Below, one piece after another: positions 24,275 through 33,237 of a DNA stretch of 64,000 nt. The notes beneath the pieces were generated by a model, which did not search any database, was not told the DNA's origin, and saw only the letters and a list, made by a program, of their open reading frames with translations. The translations under genes and the position numbers were made by a program. Numbering within the stretch: position 1 is the stretch's first letter; each line of letters begins with the position of its first letter. The stretch comes from Actinomycetes bacterium (GTDB lineage: Bacteria; Actinomycetota; Acidimicrobiia; Acidimicrobiales; Ilumatobacteraceae): the NCBI GenBank assembly GCA_025358125.1, contig JANYKS010000004.1, positions 1-64,000 of the forward strand. The letters are read 5' to 3'.

Positions 24275-25420
24275 TCAGACCGCTGCGACCCATGTGCGCA
24301 GCGTTGTAGCGACGGAGACCGCGTCGGGCATGGCGACGATTTCGGCTGCACATTTGCGGCTCGCCGCCGCGTGGTCCGCGTCGAAGACGACGCGCCGCAC
24401 GGCAGCGGCAAGGTTGGCTGGGGTGACCACTTCGGGTCGGAGGGCGATGGCCGTACCGGCCCTTTCGCACATGGCGGCGTGCTCGTAGTTGTCGGCGCCC
24501 TGAGGAAGGATCACCTGCGGTATACCGTGTGCCAGTGCGCCGAAGGTCGTGCCCGCTCCACCGTGGTGCACGATCGCGCTGCACGACGGGAGCAGATCCG
24601 CCTGCGGGATGAACTGTTCGACTCGTACGTTCGCGGGAAAGGGTGCCAGCTCGCCCGGATTTTGATCATGTCCGACTGTCATCACCACGTCGACCGGCTC
24701 GTCGGCGAGCGCGTCGAGCGCAACTTGGAAGAGACCGAGATTGGCGTTGAACAGTGTCCCGAAGGTCACGTACACGACCGGTCGTGGCGTGACCTCGCGT
24801 GGCCTGGCGGGCAGTGCCACGGGGCGCAGGCGCCATGTCTCGCCCGTCGGGACGTGTGCGGTCTCCAGCATCGGTGGGCAGATCTGGATGGTGAGGTCGC
24901 GGTACATCCCGGCCCAGCCGGGCACGTCGCGCCCGTACGACCTCCAGATCGGCGAGACCGCGTCGTTCGCGAGTTCGACAGCGTCGTTCGGTGGAAGCGG
25001 CCCGAACATGTGAGCGACGCCGGGGACGCCGAGGAGTTCGGCCACCAGAGGGCCCGCGAGGGCAAACGCCTCGAACACAACGACGTCGGGAGCGAACTTG
25101 TGGCCCTCACGTAGGACGTCATCGATCATCTCGTCGACACCGATCTCGCCGAACGCCCGAGGGAGGAAGTAGTGCAAGATGCGCTCGGCCGCGATGCCAT
25201 CGCCAGGATTGCCGCGAGTCCTCGTCGCGAGTCGGGCCATCCATTCCGCCTGGCTTCGACCGGCCAAGGCGAATCGCGCGCCGGTCTTCGCGATGATCGG
25301 CGCTGCCTCGGGTCCGGAAACGACGAGCACCTCGTCGCCGCCCGCTAGCAACGCGCCGATGAGCGGGACGAGCGGGGTCACGTGGCCCGCACCTGGCGTG
25401 GACACGACGAAGATCTTCAT
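24275..25420 (-). CDS. Glycosyltransferase family 1 (UDP-glycosyltransferase/macrolide type)
   Basis: A 381-residue GT-B enzyme. It opens with MKIFVVSTPGAGHVTPLVPL, the acceptor-side motif of the MGT/UGT group. The C-terminal donor domain has VVYVTFGTLFNANLG, VRVEQFIPQADLLPSCSAIVHHGGAGTTFGAL and HGIPQVILPQGADNYEHAAMCERAG, the nucleotide-sugar signature (HHGGAGTT, then the D/N-Q-like contact region). It would transfer a sugar from a nucleotide donor to a lipid or small-molecule acceptor. It is intact, isolated in the mobile island and without pathway neighbours, so the acceptor cannot be guessed. The ATG lies next to a short AT-poor gap. Confidence 0.9.
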   Translation of the reverse strand: MKIFVVSTPGAGHVTPLVPLIGALLAGGDEVLVVSGPEAAPIIAKTGARFALAGRSQAEWMARLATRTRGNPGDGIAAERILHYFLPRAFGEIGVDEMIDDVLREGHKFAPDVVVFEAFALAGPLVAELLGVPGVAHMFGPLPPNDAVELANDAVSPIWRSYGRDVPGWAGMYRDLTIQICPPMLETAHVPTGETWRLRPVALPARPREVTPRPVVYVTFGTLFNANLGLFQVALDALADEPVDVVMTVGHDQNPGELAPFPANVRVEQFIPQADLLPSCSAIVHHGGAGTTFGALAHGIPQVILPQGADNYEHAAMCERAGTAIALRPEVVTPANLAAAVRRVVFDADHAAASRKCAAEIVAMPDAVSVATTLRTWVAAV

Positions 25421-28838: not shown

Positions 28839-29543
28839 GTGATCGATCTTTCCCACCCAGGAACTGGACCCGCCCGCTGGCACCACGCGATGCGGAACAT
28901 GGGGCCGTGGATCTTCGACGCCAACCGGCATCGCCGGCTCGTCGTCGCTGCGCCGCACCCGGATGACGAGACGCTGGGCGCCGGAGGCATCATCGCCGAG
29001 GCGTCCCGTCGCAGTCTCCCCGTGGTGGTGGTGTCCTTGACCGACGGAGAGGCGGCCACGGACGAGGTCGGACTCGGCGATCGCCGGCACGGCGAACTGC
29101 TCGCTTCGCTGCGGTGTCTCGCTCCCCCCGGCGTCCAGCGGGTCGTACGGTGTCGGCTGCCCGACGGTGGTCTGAGCGAACGTCGTGAGGAGTTGATCGC
29201 AATCCTGCGGTCTGAGACAGATGCCGGCGATCTGCTGCTGGCCCCGCTCTACTGCGACGGTCACCCTGATCATGACGCGGTCGGCACCGCTGCGCTGTCC
29301 CTGGCCGCGCAGCCCGGCATCGATGTCGGCTTCTTCCCGATCTGGGCCTGGCACTGGCACGACCCGTCAGTTTCCGTCGTTGCCGCCGGCGGTCGCCGAA
29401 TTGAGCTGTCACCAGCGTCGTCGGCCGCCAAGGCACGGGCACTTGCGTGCTTCGTCTCGCAGACCTGCGGTGCGGACCCGGTGCTGCCCCATCACTTCCT
29501 CGATCGGTTCGGTGATTCGTACGAGGTCGTCGTTCAACCGTGA
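28839..29543 (+). CDS. PIG-L family (LmbE-like) deacetylase
   Basis: A ~234-residue zinc deacetylase. The metal motif is VVAAPHPDDETLGAGG near residue 37-50 and the third ligand is in CDGHPDHDAVG near residue 148. Family members remove an N-acetyl group from GlcNAc-linked molecules (mycothiol, GlcNAc-PI) or related amides. It heads a cassette in which deacetylase, methyltransferase, GT2 and acyl-CoA-dehydrogenase-like genes each overlap by four bases. Start uncertain: the GTG before IDLSHPGTGPARW is preferred; GTG at 28794 and an internal ATG (MRNMGPW) are alternatives. Confidence 0.88.
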   Translation: MIDLSHPGTGPARWHHAMRNMGPWIFDANRHRRLVVAAPHPDDETLGAGGIIAEASRRSLPVVVVSLTDGEAATDEVGLGDRRHGELLASLRCLAPPGVQRVVRCRLPDGGLSERREELIAILRSETDAGDLLLAPLYCDGHPDHDAVGTAALSLAAQPGIDVGFFPIWAWHWHDPSVSVVAAGGRRIELSPASSAAKARALACFVSQTCGADPVLPHHFLDRFGDSYEVVVQP

Positions 29544-30103
29544 GGGTCGATCTGGAAGCATTCGAACGGTTCTATCGCGCCGAAAGCGACCCGTGGTGCT
29601 TCGCTTCCTCGCCGTACGAGCAGCGCAAGTACGAACTGACCGTTGCGTCGTTGCCCCGCCGCCACTACCGGCGGTGTTTCGAGCCGGGCTGCTCCATCGG
29701 TGCGCTCACGGAACGGTTGGCAGCGGTTGCGGCAGAGGTCGTGGCCATAGAAGCCTCGGCCGCGGCCGCGGCGGCTGCCGTCCAGCGCCTTGGGGCGTAT
29801 CCGAACGTGTCGGTGCGCAACGGCTCCGTCCCGGAAGATTGGCCGCACGGGGAGTTCGACCTGATCGTGTTGTCCGAACTCGGCTACTACTGAGACGCAC
29901 CCGAGTTGACAACCATAGTCGAGCGTGGACGCGACTGCCTGCGCCGTGAGGGCCATCTCATCGGTGTGCACTGGCTCGGACATTCCGACGACCATTTGCT
30001 GAACGGGTCGGACGTGCACGAGATCATCGCCGGCACGTTCGGTCCGTCGATCGTGCGTCACGCCGAGTCGGAGTTCGTGCTCGACGTGTGGGAGCTGCCG
30101 TGA
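29540..30103 (+). pseudogene. SAM-dependent methyltransferase (NodS-like) with in-frame TGA
   Basis: From the GTG overlapping the deacetylase stop, the frame reads VDLEAFERFYRAESDPW, CFEPGCSIGALTERLA (SAM motif I) and DLIVLSELGYY, then a TGA at 29891. The same frame continues without any shift: DAPELTTIVERGRDCL, LIGVHWLGHSDDHLLNGSDV and FVLDVWELP, ending at 30103 with a four-base overlap into the GT2 gene. The joined product is a normal ~188-residue class I methyltransferase. The TGA replaces what is commonly Trp (tgg) in YYWDxxEL. Either a true nonsense mutation or a sequencing error. Confidence 0.8.
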
Positions 30104-30855
30104 GCGATGCCGATCTGATCCGCGCACTCGTGGTGGGTGTACCGGCGCGCAACGAAGAGAGTCGGATCGTCGCCTGTGTCGCATCGGTGGTTGCCGCCAT
30201 CAGCGCGCTGGATCGCAACCTGACGGTCGCGATCGTGGTCGCCAGCGATGACTCGACCGACTCCACCGACGTGCTGCTCGCCACCATTTCCAGGTGCGAG
30301 CCATCGGTGCACATGGTGCGCGGCAACTGGCGGTCAGCCGGTGGAACCCGACGGGCAGCCGTAGATCATGGTCTGGCCCTGCTGGCAGCCGCGGGATTCA
30401 CTGCGATGAACTCGACCTGGATCGCCACCACCGACGCCGACACCGTCGTGTCACCCGACTGGCTGCTGCGCCACTTGCATCACGCCGAGTCCGGCTACGA
30501 CGCAGTCGCCGGAATCGTCGGTATCACCGACGATGAGGACTGCACCGCCGAACTGTTGGCCACCTTCACCGAGCTGTACACGTTGGAACGCGAGACCCAC
30601 CCGCACGTTCACGGCGCAAACTTCGGCGTCCGGGCCAGCGCATATCTGGCCGCCGACGGATTCCCCGACATCAGGGTGTCCGAGGATCATGCCCTGTGGA
30701 ACGAACTTCGTCGTCAAAAGTTCCGATTGGTGTCGCGGGTGGACGTCCGCGTGTCGACCAGCGCCAGGTTGCGGGGCCGCGCGGTCGGCGGCTTCGCCGA
30801 CACGATGGCGGCGGCGCTGTCTTCAACGGCGGGCCCGACGGAGGTGGCCTCGTGA
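30100..30855 (+). CDS. Glycosyltransferase family 2
   Basis: A 251-residue GT-A enzyme. It begins RALVVGVPARNEESRIVACV (nucleotide-binding start of GT2), has VVASDDSTDST, the DxD-type metal motif in WIATTDADTVVSPDWL, and HGANFGVRASAYLAADGFP followed by SEDHALWNELRR (the ED catalytic-base region). No membrane segment is evident, so it is cytosolic or peripheral. Start and stop overlap the neighbours by four bases. In this cassette it likely glycosylates or builds the molecule also touched by the deacetylase and methyltransferase; the product is unknown. Confidence 0.88.
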   Translation: MSDADLIRALVVGVPARNEESRIVACVASVVAAISALDRNLTVAIVVASDDSTDSTDVLLATISRCEPSVHMVRGNWRSAGGTRRAAVDHGLALLAAAGFTAMNSTWIATTDADTVVSPDWLLRHLHHAESGYDAVAGIVGITDDEDCTAELLATFTELYTLERETHPHVHGANFGVRASAYLAADGFPDIRVSEDHALWNELRRQKFRLVSRVDVRVSTSARLRGRAVGGFADTMAAALSSTAGPTEVAS

Positions 30856-31805
30856 GCGGGCTGCGCGACGCCCTGGCCGAGGTGGCTGCCGTCCTCCTGC
30901 CGCTTCCGGGAAGCGGGGATACTTCGGGCCGTCTGTTCGGCCTGTCGGAGGTTGCGCGTCGCGATCTTGAGCTGGCCCGCTTGGCCGAAGCCCACTACGA
31001 CGCGCAGGCCATCGCTGCCGAGATGGGTGCAGACCTCGTCGAGAATTCGCTCTACGGTGTGTGGGCCGCCAGCGGACCGGATCCGCTCGTTGCTCGGCGG
31101 ACGCCAGATGGCTTTGCGATATCGGGCACCGTGGCGTGGTGCACCGGTGTCGGGATCGTGGATCGGGCGTTGGTGACGGCGTCCAGTTCGGATGCTCATG
31201 GCAATCCGCAAGGACTGCTGCTCGACGTGGCCGTCGCCGATGCAACGGTCGTCGACGATGGTCTGGCGTGGGTCTCTCCGGCATTCGCCGCCACCGGGAC
31301 TGCGTCGATGCGTTTCGCCGCTTCGTTGCCGGCGTCGGCCCTGATCGGGGGGCCGGACAGTTACCTCGACCGACCGGGTTTCTGGCATGGCGCGATCTGT
31401 GTCAGCGCCTGTTGGGTGGGTGGGGTCCGAGGCCTCCTGGACCGGTACCAGCAACGTTGGAGACGCGATGATCCACACGCGCTGGCCCACCTCGGCAGCG
31501 CCGCGGCATGGGTCGATGCACTGGACGCGGTGCTCGGTCGAGCGGGCACCGAGATCGACACGAACCCGTCCGACATCGCAGCGGCCCAAGCCCGGGCCCG
31601 TTCCGTGCGACACGTGATCGAGCGGGCCTGCGTCACGGTGATGGACGACCTCGCGGTCGGGGCCGGGCCCGAGCCATTGGCCTACGACGCGGACATTCTC
31701 CGACGCACGCAACAACTGCAGTTGTACATCCGTCAGTGCCACGGCGAACGCGATCTCGCCCCGCTCGGCAAATTTGTGATGGACAAAACCGACCGAAGCC
31801 GATGA
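30852..31805 (+). CDS. Acyl-CoA-dehydrogenase-like flavoprotein
   Basis: A 317-residue protein with the three-part acyl-CoA dehydrogenase layout in a shortened form (usual length ~380): helical start (EVARRDLELARLAEAHYDAQ), beta domain (NSLYGVWAASGPDP, GFAISGTVAWCTGVGIVDRALV, which is the WITN-like region), and helical C-terminus (RHVIERACVTVMDDLAVGAG, QLQLYIRQCHGERDLAPLG). The catalytic Glu typical of beta-oxidation enzymes is not obvious, so it may act on a carrier-bound or sugar-linked substrate. It ends the four-gene overlapping cassette. Confidence 0.8.
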   Translation: MSGLRDALAEVAAVLLPLPGSGDTSGRLFGLSEVARRDLELARLAEAHYDAQAIAAEMGADLVENSLYGVWAASGPDPLVARRTPDGFAISGTVAWCTGVGIVDRALVTASSSDAHGNPQGLLLDVAVADATVVDDGLAWVSPAFAATGTASMRFAASLPASALIGGPDSYLDRPGFWHGAICVSACWVGGVRGLLDRYQQRWRRDDPHALAHLGSAAAWVDALDAVLGRAGTEIDTNPSDIAAAQARARSVRHVIERACVTVMDDLAVGAGPEPLAYDADILRRTQQLQLYIRQCHGERDLAPLGKFVMDKTDRSR

Positions 31806-31905: not shown

Positions 31906-33237
31906 GTGAGACGGATCGCAGCAACTTTGCTCGCCGGCACGGTGAAGATCAACCAGTCGCAGTTCGTGTACATCGAAGGATCCGACATCCACGGTGCAGA
32001 CGACAACGCGATCGACTTCGTCGCCGTCCAGTACGGCCACGTCAGCGGTAACCGGATCCACGACGCTCGGGACTGGTGCATGTACGCGAAAGGAGGCAGC
32101 GCGTACCTGACGTTTTCGGGCAACGAAGTCTTCGATTGCGGCACCGGCGGTAGCACTGCCGGTCAGGGAACCGGTTTCGAGTTCATGGCCGCACCGTGGC
32201 TGAATTACGAGGCGTACGGCATCCAGATCGTGAACAACATCGTCCACGACACCGAAGGCGCCGAACTCGGCGTGGCCGGCGGGTTCAATGTCGTGCCCGC
32301 CTACAACACGCTCTACAAGGTCGGGACGCGCAGCCATGTGGTCGAGTTCGTGCACGGCAGACGTGGTTGCGACGGCACACCGGACGTTTGCTCCGCTCAC
32401 CATGACGCGGGTGGCTGGGGATCGACCGAGGGTGAGGAGGCGCTGATACCGAACCGGCACGTCTACTTCTATGACAACCTCATCCTCAACCCGTCCGGGG
32501 TGCAGTCCAAATGGCAACAGTTCCAGATCGACGGACCCATCGACCCGGCGCCATCGAGCGGCGTCCCTTCACCATCGTTGGCCGACGACGACCTTCGCAT
32601 CGCGGGCAACGTGATCTGGAACGGGCCCACCGACCACAAGCTCGGCGCGGGAGACGGATGCGCGGAACCCAACACATCGTGCAACGAAACCCAACTGCGC
32701 GCGACCAACACAATCAACGCCGTCGAGCCACGGCTGCGCGATCCCGAACACGGCGACTACTCCCTCACCGACGCGTCATGGGCCGTACTCCCACCGACCG
32801 TCACCGTTCCAGGGTTCATCTGGGACGCCACGCCCGTGCCCGTTCCCGCAGGCGCTGACGCCGTCAACGTGACGAGGGATCTGGCCGGCGACACCCGGGT
32901 AACGGGGGACCTCCCGGCGCCCGATGATTCAGCCGGATTCCGCTCGAGCTCACCCGACGCCGGCCACACGACTCTGATGATGCGCGGCCGTCGGTGCGGT
33001 GGTCGACTCGCCGGACCGAGTTCAGTCGAAGAGCAACGCAAGGCGGTCACGGGTGTCGGACCGGGCTATCCGGCGAAGCGTCGACTCCCGAGCCTGGCGG
33101 GCGACCGCCGCCCGAGGGCCCGGATCCATAGCGTTTGCGCCCATCACCGCCGCGTCGTCGGGGGTCGGCTGGAATGCGACCACGGGCACCCCTCGCCGGC
33201 GGAGGCGGAGCACCTCGGCGTCCAGCAGGGCGCGTGA
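31906..33237 (+). CDS. Right-handed parallel beta-helix protein, 5' truncated and read through at 3' end
   Basis: Residues ~12-330 have the repeated pattern of pectate-lyase-like beta-helices (VYIEGSDIHGADDNAIDFVA, VSGNRIHDARDWCMYAKGG, IQIVNNIVHDTEGAELGVAG, RIAGNVIWNGPTDHKLG). Such proteins are normally exported and ~450 residues long with a signal peptide; here the GTG start is immediately followed by the repeat and no signal exists, so the 5' end is missing. Real similarity probably ends near 32940 (DLAGDTRVTGDLPAPDD). The frame then runs on to 33237 across the 3' end of the opposite-strand patatin gene, suggesting a lost stop codon. Probably non-functional. Confidence 0.6.
   Translation: MRRIAATLLAGTVKINQSQFVYIEGSDIHGADDNAIDFVAVQYGHVSGNRIHDARDWCMYAKGGSAYLTFSGNEVFDCGTGGSTAGQGTGFEFMAAPWLNYEAYGIQIVNNIVHDTEGAELGVAGGFNVVPAYNTLYKVGTRSHVVEFVHGRRGCDGTPDVCSAHHDAGGWGSTEGEEALIPNRHVYFYDNLILNPSGVQSKWQQFQIDGPIDPAPSSGVPSPSLADDDLRIAGNVIWNGPTDHKLGAGDGCAEPNTSCNETQLRATNTINAVEPRLRDPEHGDYSLTDASWAVLPPTVTVPGFIWDATPVPVPAGADAVNVTRDLAGDTRVTGDLPAPDDSAGFRSSSPDAGHTTLMMRGRRCGGRLAGPSSVEEQRKAVTGVGPGYPAKRRLPSLAGDRRPRARIHSVCAHHRRVVGGRLECDHGHPSPAEAEHLGVQQGA

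Follow-up and report, generated by a model that had tools for sequence, protein, structure and literature searches.

A cross-phylum cassette of PIG-L deacetylase, NodS-like methyltransferase, family 2 glycosyltransferase and flavoenzyme genes, found beside stress genes in some lineages

The window, by which the whole 64,000-nucleotide stretch of DNA analysed here is meant, was found to carry a cassette of four genes for a PIG-L (LmbE-like) deacetylase, a NodS-like methyltransferase (MT), a family 2 glycosyltransferase (GT2) and a flavoenzyme of acyl-CoA dehydrogenase (ACAD) fold, and this cassette is one conserved unit in at least four bacterial phyla. We give a probability of about 0.5 to the reading that it is a self-contained module, induced by desiccation, osmotic or oxidative stress, in which an amino sugar is transferred to an acceptor, freed of its N-acetyl group, methylated and oxidised. 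The product is probably a modified amino-sugar compound that aids survival of drying or oxidative stress.

The layout of the cassette is given in Table 1, and GC by codon position was of the coding type in all four frames of the window sequence. The sequence-only reading had every one of the four start codons overlapping the preceding stop by four bases; three such GTGA junctions were found, but the PIG-L gene has no upstream partner with which to overlap.

Table 1. Features of the cassette in the window
Feature	Position	Strand	Remarks
PIG-L (LmbE-like) zinc deacetylase	28839..29543	+	~234 aa, GTG start; alternative starts 28794 TTG, 28890 ATG
NodS-like SAM methyltransferase frame	29540..30103	+	187 codons, interrupted; 117-aa product as sequence stands
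In-frame TGA within methyltransferase	29891..29893	+	from translation and alignment to relatives
GT-A family 2 glycosyltransferase (GT2)	30100..30855	+	251 aa; PF00535 E=2e-16
ACAD-superfamily flavoenzyme	30852..31805	+	317 aa; without canonical catalytic glutamate
GTGA stop/start overlap, PIG-L/methyltransferase	29540..29543	+	from sequence
GTGA stop/start overlap, methyltransferase/GT2	30100..30103	+	from sequence
GTGA stop/start overlap, GT2/ACAD-like	30852..30855	+	from sequence

Conservation of the set was counted over 64 well-flanked, non-redundant loci, a set being complete when all four genes lay within 5 kb. By this count the four genes were kept together at 54 of the 64 loci, in Actinomycetota, Acidobacteriota, Pseudomonadota and Myxococcota, and such conservation across phyla places the grouping beyond chance. 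The claim that the four genes form one cassette, which was to fall if they were not conserved together, was therefore borne out. Eight gene orders were seen, the commonest being ACAD-PIGL-MT-GT2 (41) and PIGL-MT-GT2-ACAD (19); that the order was shuffled yet the membership kept argues for a functional linkage. The pairwise identities of the four proteins were also correlated with one another (r 0.81-0.91; 0/1000 permutations), and at three loci (L092, L098 and L154) the PIG-L and MT matches fell within a single ORF.

Among 60 related genomes the ACAD-like gene was present in 10; in all 10 it had one or more of its three partner genes beside it, and in 9 it had two or more. In a phylum-wide draw, the flavoenzyme was found in 36 of 296 genomes. 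In one scan over GTDB contigs, 349 relatives of the flavoenzyme were confirmed, the best 80 of which came from Actinomycetota, Acidobacteriota, Marinobacter and Myxococcota, with many Streptomyces loci, and plasmid records of Cupriavidus, Pandoraea, Comamonas, Acinetobacter and Legionella carry the cassette as well. The module is thus carried by hundreds of genomes, including those of Streptomyces, soil Acidobacteriota, Acinetobacter and Marinobacter. A search for further constant neighbours over 84 loci, with neighbour ORFs picked by a coding-bias filter, returned no cluster besides the four genes above 13/84; the most frequent were SDR, histidine kinase and catalase clusters (each at most 13). 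No NodA-like, ligase (BshC/MshC-like), flippase, polymerase, acyltransferase or natural-product gene was conserved near the cassette at these 84 loci.

The first three proteins could be placed in their families from profile and structure comparisons. The deacetylase belongs to Pfam family PF02585 (E=1.4e-18, 68 bits against a cut-off of 28.2), and its metal motifs AHPDDE and HPDH, kept across 76 homologues, are present in the window protein; its relatives in the PDB are TT1542, diacetylchitobiose deacetylase, BshB and the pseudoaglycone deacetylase Dbv21. With the stop read through, the methyltransferase gave a match to the NodS domain PF05401 (E=9.5e-13, 48.9 bits, Pfam gathering score 24), and its structure matches were 4isc (E=1.8e-32) and NodS 3ofj (E=1.1e-9). 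The glycosyltransferase scored 60.8 bits with Glycos_transf_2 (PF00535), and its T-D-A-D (DxD) and E-D motifs are invariant among homologues. Its predicted structure (pLDDT 89.9) shows a compact GT-A domain, ~250 aa in length, to which no membrane helices are added; its fold neighbours include heparosan synthase 2, WrtF and TarS/TarP. Those that handle GlcNAc (heparosan synthase 2, TarS and TarP) would fit with GlcNAc as the donor, a fit of folds which stops short of proof.

Further evidence on the chemistry came from a sister cassette, mostly from one other actinobacterial family (L118, L119, L122, L123 and L143-L152). At 14/14 loci its order was CE4 deacetylase (PF01522, NodB fold), ACAD, NodS-like MT, FAD reductase and GT2, the GT2 end running beyond the fetched stretch at L148, and at L119 every junction was a four-base overlap. 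PIG-L was absent from all 14 sister loci, and no CE4 gene was present at any PIG-L-type locus; as a background control, the CE4 genes in 20 PIG-L-type genomes were found to sit apart from the cassette. Since two unrelated folds fill the same slot, a common reaction is indicated, namely removal of the N-acetyl group from an N-acetylhexosamine. The swap points to a GlcNAc-type sugar as the putative cassette intermediate, deacetylated by PIG-L or by CE4, and it is this claim on the chemistry that is concrete and testable. The suggestion that the enzymes carry out glycoconjugate chemistry was supported, and the NodB-type deacetylase of the sister cassette strengthens the logic of deacetylase, methyltransferase and GT2 together.

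The fourth protein gave zero matches in a Pfam scan, and a profile of its family reached ACAD and DszC structures. Its model (pLDDT 86.4) matched TdsC, ACADs, DszC and KijD3 near-equally (Z 26-28), the ACADs over ~300 residues, and hhalign aligned the family with canonical ACADs of the same genome at 96% probability, so that the ACAD fold is clear. In that hhalign comparison, an invariant Gln replaces the canonical catalytic Glu of the EGT loop, and no Glu was found in the family at the alternative, IVD-type helix position. "Acyl-CoA dehydrogenase" is therefore a label of fold and not of function, and the dehydrogenation step that had been proposed from the sequence becomes doubtful, the canonical base being missing. 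The nitrososynthases KijD3, ORF36 and DnmZ are among its fold neighbours; like the group D flavin monooxygenases TdsC and DszC, they have no glutamate at the canonical ACAD positions, and neither has the cassette family. The cassette protein differs from them in being shorter (317 vs ~400 aa), in its identity of 15-19% and in having conserved motifs of its own (RPGFWHG and YxRQxHxERDL). An FAD reductase gene (Pyr_redox_2), present in the sister cassette, was also found beside one PIG-L cassette (L021), which suggests a reductive partner for the flavoenzyme. A group-D-like oxygenase or amine oxidant is more likely than an acyl-CoA dehydrogenase, even though true ACADs stand among the fold neighbours at equal Z. 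PF00441, the ACAD C-terminal domain, was matched at 41 places in this genome, and the cassette flavoenzyme was not one of them.

The neighbourhood of the cassette is rich in stress genes in some lineages and devoid of them in others, including that of the host organism. In Comamonas the order otsA-ACAD-PIGL-MT-GT2-otsB was observed, with genes overlapping or at most 3 bp apart, and in Legionella otsB-GH65-PIGL-MT-GT2-ACAD. Cupriavidus has maltokinase, GlgE and the katE catalase beside the cassette, and an Acinetobacter plasmid has a katE catalase, DUF421, an iron-containing redox enzyme, the cassette and otsAB. A diiron-oxidase-like protein, DtpC, acts along with KatE in the protection of A. 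baumannii against drying (PMC13232832) and might be a counterpart of this redox enzyme. At three Marinobacter loci (L057, L059 and L061), PIG-L and MT are separated by a sucrose-phosphate synthase/phosphatase fusion together with a GT28-like glycosyltransferase. A katE-type catalase lay near 18 loci against ~0.4 expected, a rough estimate that ignores shared ancestry. The trehalose link is limited to a few loci, those of Comamonas, Legionella, Acinetobacter and Cupriavidus; no katE, otsA or otsB homologue was found in the window, and the OtsA of this genome is on another contig.

Independent evidence was available from published expression data of A. baumannii. Its locus has four cassette homologues in the order ACAD-PIGL-MT-GT2, 27-38% identical to the window proteins and arranged as ACICU_02432-02435, genes which have been described as GT, MT, LmbE and ACAD-related with no function assigned (PMC5660220). 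It adjoins the DUF2171 gene A1S_2230/ACICU_02436 (L117:6370-6600, divergent from the cassette), the sequence of which is printed in PMC6330354. From the like arrangement and this adjoining gene, the A. baumannii cassette was identified with ACICU_02432-02435. In two colistin-dependent mutants these four genes were down 31-62-fold, along with otsA (27-50-fold), otsB (12-35-fold) and a catalase (22-31-fold), and ACICU_02436 ranked near the top both for expression level and for extent of down-regulation (PMC5660220). Furthermore, otsAB and likewise the katE-dtp locus depend on (p)ppGpp in A. baumannii (PMC12742793). The joint fall with otsAB and catalase is evidence that the cassette belongs to the A. 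baumannii stress regulon; it ranks there with the genes whose expression most strongly follows that of trehalose synthesis and catalase. Papers on BfmR, silver and DksA in A. baumannii make no mention of the cassette in their main texts, and no account of what it does turned up in the open literature.

In the order of steps that we infer, the soluble GT2 would transfer an N-acetylhexosamine, probably GlcNAc, onto a small acceptor, and PIG-L would then take off the acetyl group, as the NodB-type CE4 enzyme would do in the sister cassette. The NodS-like enzyme would methylate the deacetylated product, the newly exposed amine being the probable site (oxygen could also be its target), and the ACAD-fold flavoenzyme would oxidise that product. 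All four enzymes could act on one amino sugar, possibly on its nitrogen. The best guess for the acceptor, made from the gene context, is trehalose, sucrose or a related compatible solute. We put forward only tentatively, as a rather doubtful extension, that the module from Acidobacteriota to Pseudomonadota (GT2, PIG-L or CE4, NodS-like MT and flavoenzyme) makes a widespread, undescribed stress protectant, an N-methylated and possibly N-oxidised glucosaminyl derivative of a trehalose- or sucrose-like solute that aids survival of desiccation or oxidative stress. If the module does make such a protectant, a new small molecule would have been found and a gap filled in the account of how bacteria withstand drying.

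The sequence-only reading had missed the stress and compatible-solute context of the cassette, as well as a premature stop in the methyltransferase of this genome. Codon 118 of 187 is an in-frame TGA, preceded by 117 residues; in the alignment the four nearest relatives have Trp at this position (GYYW) and the other five have Phe or Leu. An invariant His of an H-W motif falls after the TGA and is hence lost from the product. The pathway is probably incomplete at the methylation step here. Recoding of TGA was ruled out because all four cassette frames terminate with TGA. It is a serious alternative, at a little under even odds, that the cassette of this genome is a decaying relic, whatever the family does elsewhere; besides the TGA, this is favoured by the ACAD-like gene being found in just 2/8 genomes of the same genus, so that most are without the cassette. 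Against decay, the remaining three frames are intact and GC3 of the methyltransferase stays at 0.81 downstream of the stop; since the coding bias carries on unchanged, the TGA is either a young nonsense mutation or an error in the assembly, the latter being equally possible.

A role of the cassette in modifying a cell-surface glycan or glycolipid (of lipid, capsule or wall), so as to strengthen the envelope under stress by NodC-NodB-NodS-like action on a short glycan, is considered unlikely. The combination of GT2, NodB-type or PIG-L deacetylase and NodS-like methyltransferase speaks for it, as do TarS/TarP and heparosan synthase among the fold neighbours, but no flippase, polymerase or acyltransferase is conserved and the GT2 model lacks extra membrane helices. 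The Nod-factor pathway in its strict form was rejected: the methyltransferase scored 53 bits against the NodS equivalog NF041650 (cut-off 300; 57.8 and 76.6 bits for the methyltransferases of relatives), a NodA-type gene is not conserved, and the GT2 is not a membrane-integral, processive enzyme of the NodC type. The resemblance to lipochitooligosaccharide chemistry that had been pointed out thus stood for the enzyme logic, which the cassette shares with the NodC-NodB-NodS core even to a NodB fold in the sister, and failed for the pathway, from which the cassette is further set apart by its extra flavoenzyme and its stress context.

It is improbable that the four genes serve to tailor a natural product for secretion, such as a nitro-sugar or aminosugar antibiotic, with the flavoenzyme as a nitrososynthase-like N-oxygenase. 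The nitrososynthase fold neighbours, Dbv21 among the PIG-L relatives and the numerous Streptomyces loci would suit this explanation; it is opposed by the lack of conserved natural-product genes around the cassette, by the occurrence of the same unit, standing by itself, in Acidobacteriota, Acinetobacter, Legionella and Marinobacter, and by the co-regulation with stress genes (PMC5660220).

A low-molecular-weight glycosyl thiol or thiol-like cofactor, for which GT and PIG-L would make a GlcN-conjugate that is then methylated and oxidised, is the most improbable explanation: the opening steps, glycosyl transfer and then PIG-L deacetylation, are those of bacillithiol and mycothiol (BshB/MshB), BshB is the best NCBIfam model for the deacetylase (47.9 bits) as well as a PDB relative, and oxidative-stress neighbours are present, but no ligase is conserved, a methyltransferase and a flavoenzyme are added, and the cassette enzyme is a GT-A family 2 protein, BshA and MshA being GT4. 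Membership of the bacillithiol and mycothiol pathways was rejected on the equivalog scores, which lie below the cut-offs for BshB1 (182.5 bits) and for MshB (23.2 against 224.35 bits).

Two other genes were observed in the window around the cassette. A UGT-like (GT1) glycosyltransferase lies ~3.4 kb upstream on the opposite strand (24275-25420, minus strand). Just downstream, on the plus strand, a gene of ~443 aa (31906-33237) resembles a right-handed beta-helix protein, and in the nearest relative (L020) a homologue is found on the upstream side of the cassette.
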